Assembly: GCF_038594945.1 (NCBI RefSeq)
Contig: NZ_JBCFYD010000002.1
Coordinates: 806,001-870,000, forward strand
From: Fodinibius sp. Rm-B-1B1-1
GTDB taxonomy: Bacteria > Bacteroidota > Rhodothermia > Balneolales > Balneolaceae
DNA: 64,000 nucleotides
Reading direction: 5' to 3'
Shown: positions 1,957 through 22,679 of the stretch, in pieces
Layout: each line of letters opens with the position of its first letter
Position numbering within the stretch: the first letter of the stretch is position 1
Position numbers and translations under genes: made by a program
Notes under the pieces: model-generated
Seen by the model: only the letters and a program-made list of their open reading frames with translations
The model's database searches: none
Told to the model about the DNA's origin: nothing

Positions 1957-3669
1957 ATGCAGATTATAGAAAGCGCAGAAGAATACGATGTATGTATCGT
2001 TGGATCGGGAGCTGGTGGCGGGATGGCAGCTCATGAATTAACAAAAGCCGGAGCAAATGTGTTAATGTTGGAGGCAGGCGGCTGGTTCGATTCAGAAGAT
2101 TTTGCCATGTTTAACTGGCCCTATGAATCCCCGCGGCGTGGCGGTCCTACCCGCCGGCAGCCGTTCGGGGAATTTGATGCCTGCTTTGGCGGATGGGATA
2201 TAGAAGGGGAGCCTTATACTACTACTGAAGGCACTGAGTTTGATTGGTTTCGGGGACGGATGCTTGGTGGCAGAACTAATCACTGGGGACGTATATCTCT
2301 GCGTTTTGGTCCGGATGATTTTCGGGCTCGAAGTAAAGATGGAATGGGGGATGACTGGCCGATAAGCTATCAAGACGTTAAACCATATTATGATCGTTTG
2401 GATCGACTGATTGGTATTTTTGGCACGAATGAAGGAATTCCCAATGCACCGGGAGGCATCTATATGGATCCGCCGGAACCTCGATGTTATGAGCATTTAA
2501 TTAAAGATGCCTGTGACGATATGGATATTCCCTGCATCCCATCCCGTCTATCTATTCTCACGGAACCACACAACGGCCGTGCTGCTTGTCACTATTGTGG
2601 TCAGTGTAATCGAAGCTGCTCTACGCATTCCAATTTTTCCAGTCCATCAGTACTACTACCTCCCGCGCTGGAAACGGGTAACCTTGAGATTATCAATAAT
2701 GCCATGGTTCGGGAAGTTACATACGAAGATGGTAAAGCTACGGGAGTTTCGTATGTGAATAAAGAGAATGGAAAAGAGTATAAGGTGAAGTCCAAGGTAG
2801 TGGTATTGGCGGCAAGTGCCTGTGAATCTGCGCGATTGTTATTGAATTCCAAATCGTCAGATTTTCCTAACGGATTGGCGAATAGCAGTGGCGTAGTGGG
2901 TAAGTATTTAATGGATTCTACCGGTACGTCTGTTATGGGACTTATTCCTGATTTAATGAATATGCCAGCACATAATGAAGACGGCACTGGCGGCATGCAT
3001 CTATATATTCCATGGTGGAAGGATAACAGCAATCTTGATTTTGCCCGTGGATATCATGTAGAATTATGGGGTGGACGAGGTATGCCCAGCTATGGGTTTA
3101 TGGGTGGTATTCAAAACTATAATGATCTTTTTCAGGATGGTCCTAAAAGATCTGGTGGTTATGGTAAAGAATTAAAAGACGATTATCGATGCTATTATGG
3201 ATCGATGGTTGGATTCTCAGGCCGAGGTGAAAGTATTGCCTATGAAGACAATTACTGCGAAATAGATCCTGATATGGTGGATGAATGGGGAATACCGGTC
3301 CTTCGATTTAATTACAACTGGAGTGACCAAGAGTACAAACAGGTTAAACACATGCAGGAAACCTTCCGCAATATTATTGATGAAATGGGAGGTGAGGCAA
3401 TGGGAGATATGCCTTCTAAAGAAGATGGATATGGTATTACTAACCCTGGCCAAATTATTCATGAAGTAGGGACCACTCGTATGGGGGATGATCCCAAGAA
3501 GTCGGTATTAAACGAGTATTGTCAGGCTCATGATGTAGACAACTTGTTTGTAACTGATGGAGGATCGTTTGTTTCGCAGCCGCATAAAAATCCAACGTGG
3601 ACTATTATGGCTCTTTCAATGCGGGCTTCTGAATATATTGTGGATCAGATGGAAAAAAGAAATCTCTAA
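1957..3669 (+). CDS. GMC family oxidoreductase, probable large subunit of a glycoside/gluconate-type dehydrogenase
   Basis: 570 residues. An FAD-binding Rossmann motif is near the N-terminus (VGSGAGGGMAAHEL then VLMLEAG), and GGRTNHWGR follows further on. C-terminal GMC domain has the expected active-site pair H543 and N545 in QPHKNPTW. A cysteine cluster C211-x2-C214-x2-C217-x3-C221 is present; such cysteines are seen in the gluconate-2-dehydrogenase/glucoside-3-dehydrogenase branch. There is no signal peptide of its own; the next gene, 15 bp downstream, encodes a Tat-like small subunit that would carry it across the membrane. The likely job is oxidation of a sugar or glycoside, passing electrons to a cytochrome that is not encoded in this window. 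Confidence 0.9.
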   Translation: MQIIESAEEYDVCIVGSGAGGGMAAHELTKAGANVLMLEAGGWFDSEDFAMFNWPYESPRRGGPTRRQPFGEFDACFGGWDIEGEPYTTTEGTEFDWFRGRMLGGRTNHWGRISLRFGPDDFRARSKDGMGDDWPISYQDVKPYYDRLDRLIGIFGTNEGIPNAPGGIYMDPPEPRCYEHLIKDACDDMDIPCIPSRLSILTEPHNGRAACHYCGQCNRSCSTHSNFSSPSVLLPPALETGNLEIINNAMVREVTYEDGKATGVSYVNKENGKEYKVKSKVVVLAASACESARLLLNSKSSDFPNGLANSSGVVGKYLMDSTGTSVMGLIPDLMNMPAHNEDGTGGMHLYIPWWKDNSNLDFARGYHVELWGGRGMPSYGFMGGIQNYNDLFQDGPKRSGGYGKELKDDYRCYYGSMVGFSGRGESIAYEDNYCEIDPDMVDEWGIPVLRFNYNWSDQEYKQVKHMQETFRNIIDEMGGEAMGDMPSKEDGYGITNPGQIIHEVGTTRMGDDPKKSVLNEYCQAHDVDNLFVTDGGSFVSQPHKNPTWTIMALSMRASEYIVDQMEKRNL

Positions 3670-3684
3670 ATTAATTCAAAAACG

Positions 3685-4290
3685 ATGGACAGACGAGAAC
3701 TTTTAAAAACATTATCGCTTGGTACGTTGGGGGCAACGTTTGCATTAACAGGTTGTACTACAGCTCCCAAAGAGAAAGCAGAGGAGCATCCTTTTTGGAA
3801 ACATGTTACTGAAGAAGACCTGGAACACTGGGAGACCCAATTCTTTACCGACCATGAATTTGAAACGGTGCGTCAGTTAGCCAATTTAGTTATCCCGGCT
3901 GATGAACGATCTGGCAATGCGGAAGAGGCGGGGGTACCAGAGTTTATTGATTTTATGATGTTAGACCAGCCTGAGAATCAAACGCCCATACGCGGAGGAC
4001 TCAAATGGTTAGATTTGCAGTGCCAAAAACAGTTTAACAATAGGTTTATCGAATGTTCAAAAAACGAACAAAAAGAGATGCTGGATCAAATTGCTTATCC
4101 CGATGAAGCAGAACCGGAAATGAAACCTGGCGTTAACTTCTTTAATCAATTTAGGGATTTGGTTGCCTCAGGATTTTGGTCCAGTAAGATTGGGATTGAA
4201 GATATTGGTTATATGGGTAATCAGGCATTTGGTTGGCAGGGCTGTTCGGAGGAAGCATTGGATAAATTGGGTTTGGAGGATAAAATTTGA
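3685..4290 (+). CDS. Gluconate 2-dehydrogenase subunit 3 family protein (small subunit of the GMC dehydrogenase)
   Basis: 201 residues. The N-terminus MDRRELLKTLSLGTLGAT has an RR pair at 3-4 followed by a hydrophobic stretch and a lipobox-like LTG-C24, consistent with a Tat-exported, possibly lipid-anchored protein. The body matches the gluconate_2-dh3 family (for example FTDHEFETVRQLANLVIPAD and GVPEFIDFMMLDQP). In known glucoside-3-dehydrogenases and gluconate-2-dehydrogenases this small subunit partners the GMC flavoprotein and provides the export signal. It starts 15 bp after the GMC stop, so the two are almost certainly co-translated partners. Confidence 0.9.
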   Translation: MDRRELLKTLSLGTLGATFALTGCTTAPKEKAEEHPFWKHVTEEDLEHWETQFFTDHEFETVRQLANLVIPADERSGNAEEAGVPEFIDFMMLDQPENQTPIRGGLKWLDLQCQKQFNNRFIECSKNEQKEMLDQIAYPDEAEPEMKPGVNFFNQFRDLVASGFWSSKIGIEDIGYMGNQAFGWQGCSEEALDKLGLEDKI

Positions 4291-21082: not shown

Positions 21083-21141
21083 GGTATATTTCTGATTAAT
21101 TGATTTGCCACCGTGTTATTTTAAGCGACCTTAAAATAGTA

Positions 21142-21151
21142 ACCATTTGGT
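21142..21151. promoter_or_regulatory. Isolated operator-like palindrome
   Basis: ACCATTTGGT, arms ACCA/TGGT, lies in the same divergent intergenic region as the three phased palindromes before satD and shares their AACCA core. It is nearer the UPF0182 gene start. Possibly a fourth binding site. Confidence 0.4.
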
Positions 21152-21205
21152 AGAAAATAGAATTTAAACAATCCTTATACACGAAAATATATTACCCGTT
21201 CATAT

Positions 21206-21276
21206 AACCCATATAGTTTAAAAACTATTTATTAAACCATAATAGTTAAATATTGATATTTTAAACCAAAATGGTT
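21206..21276. promoter_or_regulatory. Three operator-like palindromes with an exact 29-bp period upstream of satD
   Basis: Sites 21206-21218 (AACCC ATA TAGTT), 21235-21247 (AACCA TAA TAGTT) and 21264-21276 (AACCA AAA TGGTT) fit the pattern AACCN-N3-TRGTT and start 29 bp apart each. A further inverted repeat, ATAGTTT-AA-AAACTAT, spans 21213-21228. The last site ends 18 bp before the satD ATG, so binding there would block transcription or translation initiation. SatD itself carries a C-terminal helix-turn-helix, which makes autoregulation plausible. Confidence 0.65.
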
Positions 21277-21294
21277 ATATAAAAAGAAAAAGTT

Positions 21295-21939
21295 ATGGAA
21301 AAGGTATTAGTGTTAATAGGGGATGTGGAAGATTCTCAATCCATTCCCCCAAAAGACAGAGAAGTACTACAGCAAAATCTTGCTGATGTATTAGAAGGTA
21401 TCAATGATGCAATGTCAGATTGTATTACATCGCCATATACCATAACACTGGGGGATGAATTTCAGGCTGTTTTTAGTGATGCAATGCCTGTTTTTGAGCA
21501 TATAATAACGATTATGGCACGCCTTCACCCCGTTCAGGTACGATTTTCTCTGGGGGTTGGACCTCTTGATACACCGATTAATAAGGAACAAGCCATAGGG
21601 ATGGATGGGCCGGCCTTTCATGTAGCCCGAAAAGGAATTGATTATCTAAAGGAGAACGAAGAGCTTTTTCATATCTCAATAGTCGATGATAATTCTACTG
21701 AGCTGAAGATTATAAATAGCAGCTTGCAGCTTATATCGGGACAAATGCGAAGCTGGAACAAAAGACGCTTAACGATCTTAGAGATGATTAAGCAGGGCTA
21801 TGATTACAAAGAAATTTCCGAGGCTGTAGGCATTTCAAAGCCAGCTTTTTATAAGAATAAAGAAGCTGGCATGTTGGATGTTATTGATGATATGAGTGAT
21901 AATATCGCTTCATTTTTAAATCAATATATAACAAAATGA
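21295..21939 (+). CDS. SatD family protein with C-terminal helix-turn-helix
   Basis: 214 residues. The N-terminal two thirds match the SatD family: LIGDVEDSQSIPPKDREVLQ, TITLGDEFQAVFSDA and RFSLGVGPLDTPINKEQA, GMDGPAFHVARKGIDYLK. The pattern resembles a degenerate nucleotide-cyclase-like fold. Residues about 155-185 form a helix-turn-helix (GYDYKEISEAVGISKPAFY), suggesting DNA binding. SatD was named from a streptococcal acid-tolerance operon, but its biochemical role is not established. The stop overlaps the next gene in an ATGA, so the pair is translationally coupled. The phased palindromes upstream suggest tight control. Confidence 0.8.
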   Translation: MEKVLVLIGDVEDSQSIPPKDREVLQQNLADVLEGINDAMSDCITSPYTITLGDEFQAVFSDAMPVFEHIITIMARLHPVQVRFSLGVGPLDTPINKEQAIGMDGPAFHVARKGIDYLKENEELFHISIVDDNSTELKIINSSLQLISGQMRSWNKRRLTILEMIKQGYDYKEISEAVGISKPAFYKNKEAGMLDVIDDMSDNIASFLNQYITK

Positions 21940-22679
21940 ATTATTCAATATTTTTAGGAGTTTTAACCCTTATTCTTATAGCTCGACTGCGGCTTATTTC
22001 AAAAGATAGGGGAATAACCCAGAGGGATATTTGGATTATATCAGCTATTCCTTTAGTAAGCCTGTTGTTTTTACAATTTAGTTTGGGATGGTATTTATTG
22101 GCTATCTACCTAATCAGCCATCCTGCGTTATTATGGCTTTCGGAGCAAAATACAGGGAGGTTTAATCAAAATAGGCTTTTATTGTTTTTGCTCCACTTTT
22201 TAACCGTTGGTATCTTATGCAGCCCACTCTTTCAACTGTCAGCAAATAGCCTGGCGACCAGTATTCTTAGCGGTATCGATCAGATGATATTTTTGAATTC
22301 ATCTTTAACACCAGCTGCGGTAACTACGGTACAACTTTTTCTTTTTGGTTTGCTGCTGATATTAAATGAGGCCAATATCTTTTTGCGGTACTTGCTAAAA
22401 CTTATGGGATTAAAATCACTGGGGAGGAGTACCGAAGTAGATCAGAAGGAATATAACACCGGTCGCATTATCGGGTTGCTTGAACGTATATTTGTATTTC
22501 TGTTTGTACTACTAAATCAATATACGGCCATAGGCTTTATTCTTGCAGCAAAAGGGGTAACGCGTTTCAAAGACTTTGAGAGCCGAACATTTGCCGAATA
22601 TGTATTAGTTGGAACATTGTTATCTGCGTTGTTAGCGATGAGCGTCGGTTATTTGGTAAAGTGGGGGATGGGTATTTAG
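21936..22679 (+). CDS. SatD-coupled polytopic membrane protein (DUF3307-like C-terminal part)
   Basis: 247 residues, about seven hydrophobic helices, no signal peptide. The C-terminal third (TGRIIGLLERIFVFLFVLL, then QYTAIGFILAAKGVTRF and AEYVLVGTLLSALLAMSVG) resembles the end of DUF3307-type membrane proteins that are often encoded next to SatD. The N-terminal half is divergent and I cannot place it. The ATG overlaps the satD stop by four bases, so the two proteins are made together and probably act as a pair: a cytoplasmic DNA-binding or nucleotide-binding SatD and a membrane partner. Function unknown. Confidence 0.7.
   Translation: MNYSIFLGVLTLILIARLRLISKDRGITQRDIWIISAIPLVSLLFLQFSLGWYLLAIYLISHPALLWLSEQNTGRFNQNRLLLFLLHFLTVGILCSPLFQLSANSLATSILSGIDQMIFLNSSLTPAAVTTVQLFLFGLLLILNEANIFLRYLLKLMGLKSLGRSTEVDQKEYNTGRIIGLLERIFVFLFVLLNQYTAIGFILAAKGVTRFKDFESRTFAEYVLVGTLLSALLAMSVGYLVKWGMGI

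Follow-up and report, generated by a model that had tools for sequence, protein, structure and literature searches.

Lambda cI/Cro and the antitoxins of toxin-antitoxin systems are autoregulators with tandem operators, and Pycsar and Panoptes (cyclase or mini-Cas10 systems) work with membrane effectors. The satD locus analyzed here is like lambda cI/Cro and the antitoxins in having several palindromes at the promoter of an operon whose first gene encodes the helix-turn-helix (HTH) protein. It is unlike them because the SatD array keeps a spacing of 28/29 bp across distant relatives while its letters change, and because the second domain of SatD is cyclase-like. SatD shares its predicted fold with the nucleotidyl cyclase/palm superfold (class III cyclases, GTP cyclohydrolase III, GGDEF, Cas10), but differs from the palm-superfold proteins compared in that its palm domain is fused to an HTH, and has 14% identity to 2qv6_C. 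By analogy, SatD would resemble Pycsar and Panoptes as a cyclase-fold protein encoded with a membrane protein and patchily distributed across genomes; unlike those systems, it carries its own HTH and operator array.

Little of this is found in the literature on satD. PMC11323703 links satD to the tolerance of acid stress in Streptococcus mutans, and describes the S. pyogenes gene as accessory (178 of 249 genomes) although it proved essential in the strains tested. An essential yet accessory gene would fit an antitoxin-like role in S. pyogenes. A Fusobacterium protein of the SatD family has a presumed acid-resistance role in PMC10326533. No paper on the operators, DNA targets or fold of SatD was found in open-licence PMC among the matches listed.

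The window, i.e. the whole stretch of 64,000 nucleotides from Fodinibius sp. Rm-B-1B1-1, carries satD on the + strand at 21295..21939. The product (214 aa) is a clear member of the SatD family by sequence (PF16264, 110.3 bits vs. a cut-off of 29), and the PF16264 model finds one copy in the genome. Three palindromes, none assigned to a strand, precede the gene and match the consensus AACCNNNNTRGTT exactly. Operator 1 (AACCCATATAGTT, 21206..21218) belongs to an array common to genus members; operator 2 (AACCATAATAGTT, 21235..21247) starts 29 bp after it, and operator 3 (AACCAAAATGGTT, 21264..21276), both arms of which match, 29 bp further on, ending 18 bp before the satD ATG at 21295. With at most one mismatch allowed, lone matches to AACCNNNNTRGTT are at chance level in the window (26 observed vs. 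27.0 expected). No cluster of three copies spanning 100 bp or less arose in 300 dinucleotide (Markov) surrogates of the whole window or in 20,000 surrogates of the 213-bp intergenic region. The cluster of three palindromes at 29 bp is real, not a chance arrangement, and the initial annotation, which had placed them at an exact 29-bp period 18 bp before satD, agrees with these coordinates and surrogate counts. The satD array is the sole place in the 3.41-Mb genome where AACYN5RGTT-N16-AACYN5RGTT occurs (two overlapping pairs); the reversed control of this two-copy pattern has no match in the same genome.

The fourth, partial copy that had been proposed at 21141 was discarded. The sequence AACCATTTGGTAG found there lies 65 bp before operator 1, out of register with the array (58 bp would be in register), and its equivalents in the close relatives L002-L004 (AACCATTTTGTAC, AACCATTTTGAAC and AACCATTTTATAC) all lack the right half. 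The surrounding stretch (21115-21165, around AACCATTT), near a UPF0182 gene divergent from satD (21082-18383), is similar in L002-L004 and is not palindromic there; it may belong to the leader of the UPF0182 gene.

A scan of named genomes confirmed 467 relatives, the best 80 of which were kept; the nearest are Fodinibius/Aliifodinibius (Balneolota). With 9 further loci of related genomes, the 80 make up a set of 89 upstream regions without duplicates, none longer than 300 bp, other L001-L026 loci being left out as duplicates or for want of upstream DNA, and L027-L030 being moved to a separate set (group B). AACY-N5-RGTT occurs upstream of satD in 75 of the 89 regions. The number of copies varies: 14 regions have none, 16 one, 26 two, 27 three, 5 four and 1 five. 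All 88 pairs of copies less than 48 bp apart are spaced by 27 (1 pair), 28 (32) or 29 bp (55), and distances pile up next at 56-58 bp. Sites reach a density of 6.8 per kb before satD (174 in 25,597 bases) and of 0.056 per kb in the remainder of the same loci (30 in 531,407 bases), where no two neighbouring sites lie within 60 bp. Most of the 14 regions without the AACY core bear another repeat, and L035 has none. Since satD homologues share the motif at matching spacing, the check proposed in the initial annotation is positive, and the non-conservation named there as evidence against its reading is not what is found.

Pairs spaced by 27-29 bp are seen, among the 80 named loci, under labels spanning 10 phyla: Pseudomonadota (13/22), Balneolota (11/13), Verrucomicrobiota (5/6), Bacteroidota (4/7), Ignavibacteriota (4/7), Chloroflexota (2/6), Myxococcota (1/2), Calditrichota (1/2), Rhodothermota (1/1) and Acidobacteriota (1/1), in addition to unranked records (2/3); the labels are those of the record titles, and appear wrong for some metagenome bins. 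No such AACY pair was found in Fermentibacterota (0/5), Spirochaetota (0/3), Thermodesulfobacteriota (0/1) and Zixiibacteriota (0/1). The Myxococcota pair-bearer L045 and the Acidobacteriota L044, from bins labelled Deltaproteobacteria and Holophaga, encode near-identical SatD proteins, reflecting either recent transfer or a mislabelled bin. L041 (labelled Rhodothermota) and L047 (labelled Bacteroidota) fall beside Balneolota rows in the tree.

Directly behind satD, a predicted membrane-protein gene (21936..22679, + strand, 247 aa) overlaps its end by 4 bp. The family is conserved in this position: a motif rule recognizes it after satD in 66 of 80 loci. The remaining 14 include four at a contig edge (L056, L102, L105, L106), four in which the motif is present and was missed by the rule (L039, L078, L100, L109), and six in which no convincing partner was found (L035, L053, L061, L076, L079, L094). 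L053, L061 and L094 keep their arrays, although no partner was detected in them. In L035 (F. halophilus) satD is not preceded by an array, and the partner gene is broken, with an internal stop and without the conserved C-terminal end; no rule linking array and partner is drawn from this one locus, because of the arrays kept in L053, L061 and L094. The partner of the window has no Pfam match at E 0.1, and scans of the bacterial family give stray weak matches only: DUF3307 (PF11750) is not among the 19 Pfam families matching 42 aligned members (the window and 41 of the 66 loci) at E up to 1. By contrast with the bacterial forms, the N-terminal half of a haloarchaeal partner (L159 2130-2888) matches DUF3307 with 59.9 bits, the C-terminal half being common to bacterial and haloarchaeal forms (hhalign probability 99.2%, 106 columns). 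Foldseek returned nothing convincing for the partner (best E 0.97). The top VIA-align rows, which include HCN1 and plant potassium channels, have Z scores of 5-6.5, within the noise of helical models, and were given no weight. PHROGs has no match for the partner and weak ones only for SatD (best E 2.1e-4), mostly in the HTH region. PADLOC likewise has none for the partner and weak ones for SatD (best E 0.0036, residues 148-184), and no phage record matches the SatD of the window at E 1e-5.

The palindromes are very probably a SatD operator array, through which SatD would autoregulate the operon formed by satD and the membrane-protein gene; the mode is probably repression. Promoters are recognized by consensus -35 and -10 hexamers. 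On the + strand of the window, the -35-like TTGATA (21253..21258) lies between operators 2 and 3, and the -10-like TATATA (21276..21281) follows 17 bp after it, its first base being touched by operator 3. Operator 3 thus sits within the 17-bp spacer of the pair, an arrangement which suggests repression, and a comparable layout is visible in genus members. A strict sigma-70 scan gave a match in 20 of 75 satD upstream regions, the pair of the window not being among them, and 13 of the 20 are in the frame that places the -10 on the right half of an operator; the scan has little weight and is partly circular, because the operator letters themselves resemble a -10. SatD could instead be an activator, or a nucleoprotein scaffold coupling DNA to the membrane partner, rather than a simple repressor. 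The up to five sites found before satD in some loci and the predicted membrane nature of the partner would suit such a role, but one operator of the window, as in genus members, lies within the promoter-like spacer, a common site of repression, which makes this alternative unlikely.

Autoregulation by SatD calls for a DNA-binding domain, which the initial annotation had attributed to the protein in the form of an HTH. The attribution is borne out by matches to HTH_23 in 57 of 80 SatD members at E up to 1 and by helices predicted at residues 156-166, 171-178 and 182-191. The SatD of the window scores 23.4 bits against HTH_23, slightly below the cut-off of 24.6, and the best solved chain by sequence is a resolvase (E 0.02). 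In the model (pLDDT 95.6, pTM 0.91) the C-terminal helices with the HTH span residues 156-213 (21760..21933, + strand), the predicted recognition helix being made up of residues 182-191 (21838..21867, + strand). Residues 1-132 (21295..21690, + strand) are predicted to form a palm domain like those of nucleotidyl cyclases and GTP cyclohydrolase III. Residues 2-132 align with GTP cyclohydrolase III (2qv6_C) with Z 12.8 and rmsd 2.5 over 114 residues, and the domain with class III cyclases at Z about 11-12; in Foldseek the best E is 3.3e-5, with TM-scores of 0.4-0.6. D10 is kept in 161 and D54 in 162 of 163 SatD sequences. They lie at the end of strand 1 and in a beta hairpin, respectively, and may, by their position in the fold, correspond to the two metal-binding acidic residues of class III cyclases. 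Given the cyclase-like fold of the model and the near-invariant D10 and D54, a nucleotide ligand for SatD is plausible. The gene resides in at least 55 of 195 related genomes and in at least 66 of 394 genomes of the phylum sample, and is scarcer in the other phyla sampled (at least 8/329 in the phylum of L070, 7/301 in that of L084 and 2/247 in that of L103), the centre genome being counted in each case.

Among the HTH positions tested, residue 183, which is part of the recognition helix, best predicts the base before AAC (R2 0.78; the shuffled mean is 0.12, and none of 1000 shuffles, which ignore relatedness, reaches 0.78). The set comprises those 66 of the 80 aligned rows in which AACY sites are present, L079 having been left unaligned. 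Arg is paired with G in 40/40 half-sites (8 loci), and Lys with C in 42/46 (12 loci); A or T accompanies Val or Pro in 88/88 (18 loci), and C or A accompanies Gln in 58/60 (15 loci). Several other HTH positions beat their shuffles too, at lower scores, as common ancestry would yield. When the HTH is left out of the tree, Arg and G change four times each, and the best tree has four independent Arg/G pairs; the tree is a quick one from few columns, with 34 of 77 inner branches open. Two independent Arg/G pairs are supported and both agree, a number too small for significance in a sign test, and the Lys/C and Val-Pro/AT tests are mostly uninformative on supported pairs. The covariation of residue 183 with the operator base is strong, but is not proof. 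Gln occupies position 187 in five Fermentibacterota proteins of one clade, whose genes carry a GAAGC-type palindrome in place of AACY.

The distribution of operator pairs follows that of satD. Of 97 relatives, 17 have pairs at 29 bp, and 15 of these have them at satD; those of G019 and G039 lie at contig ends, where satD would be cut off. In further genomes a pair resides at satD in 22 of 22 cases (by coordinates), two of these genomes carrying one extra pair. Pairs are nearly confined to satD in the genomes compared, and three (L151, L233, L234) were found away from it. In L151 (genome G021) an extra 29-bp pair (3033-3074) lies just before an ORF (3128-3736) for a membrane-protein-like product of 202 aa, in which an HEAGH motif is seen by eye and which matches nothing in Pfam; this ORF is a possible second target of SatD. 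The 28-bp pair of L234 (2478-2518, genome of L064) lies between two phoU-like ORFs, behind a pstB-like ORF (by eye). The 28-bp pair of L233 (1980-2020, genome of L060) shares bases with the end of an ORF of 224 aa, with a DNA-methyltransferase-like ORF close by; no obvious target gene is seen by eye among the surrounding ORFs. In the genome of the window, the 15-mer form of the single site occurs 98 times. A wide regulon is not supported in this genome, as the operator pair is unique and the single sites are rarer than matches to the reversed control pattern (251).

These data bear on a second alternative, according to which an unlinked regulator binds the palindromes and SatD is merely its target. 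Single sites elsewhere in the genome, though fewer than the reversed matches, and the three pairs away from satD would be expected of such a regulator; yet the operator letters track the SatD lineage and SatD residue 183, and pairs are nearly confined to satD, so that an unlinked regulator is highly improbable. SatD had been put forward at the outset as the candidate protein for the regular sites, and the covariation and the near-restriction to satD, as sequence comparisons, speak for it.

The spacing outlives the AACY motif. Palindromes read by eye before AACY-less or distant satD genes include some of the GAAGC type, GTAC..GTAC, GTTTCA..TGAAAC and others based on TATCG..CGATA. Repeats were therefore also monitored in a motif-free way, as the best 17-bp self-identity at lags of 18-40, ties being shared between lags, hence the decimal counts. 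Lags of 28/29 were chosen in 63.9/75 AACY regions, 11.5/13 AACY-less regions and 15/15 group B regions, vs. 3.0/73 control blocks taken 800-1000 bp upstream; L035 was omitted from the AACY-less set, and L029 and L124 (near duplicates), L128 and L131 (not parsed), L126 and L139 from group B. In a divergent satD sample fetched after the test had been fixed, the figure is 41.3/57. These 57 include 4 plasmid copies whose lag had already been seen, and L171 and L177, weak matches which may not be satD; L160, L164, L172 and L179 (duplicates) and L220 (a stray stretch) were omitted, and 170 bp upstream were used vs. 200-230 bp in the earlier sets. Five of eight plasmid satD records were examined: the best lag is 29 in each of two haloarchaeal copies, and 28 in each of two alphaproteobacterial copies. 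Over all 163 regions, 56.8 choose lag 28 and 78.5 lag 29 (135.3/163), and about 17% another lag. Counted by identity clusters, lags 28/29 account for 98.6/120 at 70%, 49.4/63 at 50% and 15.4/21 at 40%.

Palindromy itself recurs at the same distance. Under the first of three relaxed settings, 45 pairs of dyad centres 28-29 bp apart were found in set A vs. 0.6 in shuffles, and 21 in the divergent set vs. 0.7, and the excess is seen in both sets under all three. The criterion was loosened after the strict form, requiring all six arm pairs, had given too few centres: 5 pairs at 28-29 bp vs. 0.1 in shuffles in set A, and few centres, none paired at that distance, in the divergent set. As far as the letters tell, the pitch is retained across bacteria and some archaea, while the palindromes change. 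B-DNA has 10.5 bp per turn, so that 28-29 bp correspond to 2.67-2.76 helical turns. This is no whole number, hence neighbouring sites are rotated and not on one face of the helix; a protein array winding along the DNA would fit better than one-face contacts. A near-perfect 29-bp tandem repeat precedes the divergent satD of L195, which suggests that arrays can grow by duplication. Recent tandem duplication or simple-sequence repetition without function is a most improbable account of the arrays: some are near-perfect repeats as in L195, so that duplication may make copies, but the sequence between copies differs while palindromes and pitch persist, and identical pitch accompanies different palindromes in distant satD loci.

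The sequences compared show that the array is conserved, that its pitch stays constant as the letters change, that residue 183 covaries with an operator base, that pairs are nearly restricted to satD and that the two-gene order is kept; autoregulation by a SatD array draws on these observations, the domain fold of SatD being taken from a model. SatD dimers would bind each 13-bp palindrome via the C-terminal HTH. Contact between neighbouring dimers, probably by way of the N-terminal cyclase-fold domain, would set the 28/29-bp pitch; cooperative binding is inferred from the fixed spacing. The ordered nucleoprotein stretch formed over the promoter would control, and most likely repress, the operon of satD and the membrane-protein gene. 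The cyclase-like pocket may bind or convert a nucleotide, by which the array would be loosened or tightened. More tentatively, SatD may be a nucleotide-sensing, possibly nucleotide-making, cyclase-fold protein that lines up along DNA at a fixed helical pitch, forming with its membrane partner a patchy, widespread two-gene signalling or addiction/defence module the expression of which is set by this DNA-templated assembly. If this is true, lineages have changed the operator letters together with the recognition helix and retained the pitch.

The finding is larger than the initial annotation had stated, as it concerns a SatD operator array the pitch of which is kept across distant relatives. It poses a physical puzzle, namely why a distance of 28 or 29 bp, and not of whole helical turns, persists under changing letters; from the pitch one should be able to read the geometry of the SatD-SatD contact. 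Residue 183 reading the base next to AAC is a candidate DNA-recognition rule. A cyclase-like domain is linked to transcription and to a membrane protein, in an operon the function of which is directly testable, and the satD family, known mainly by name, gains a concrete job that can be put to the test.
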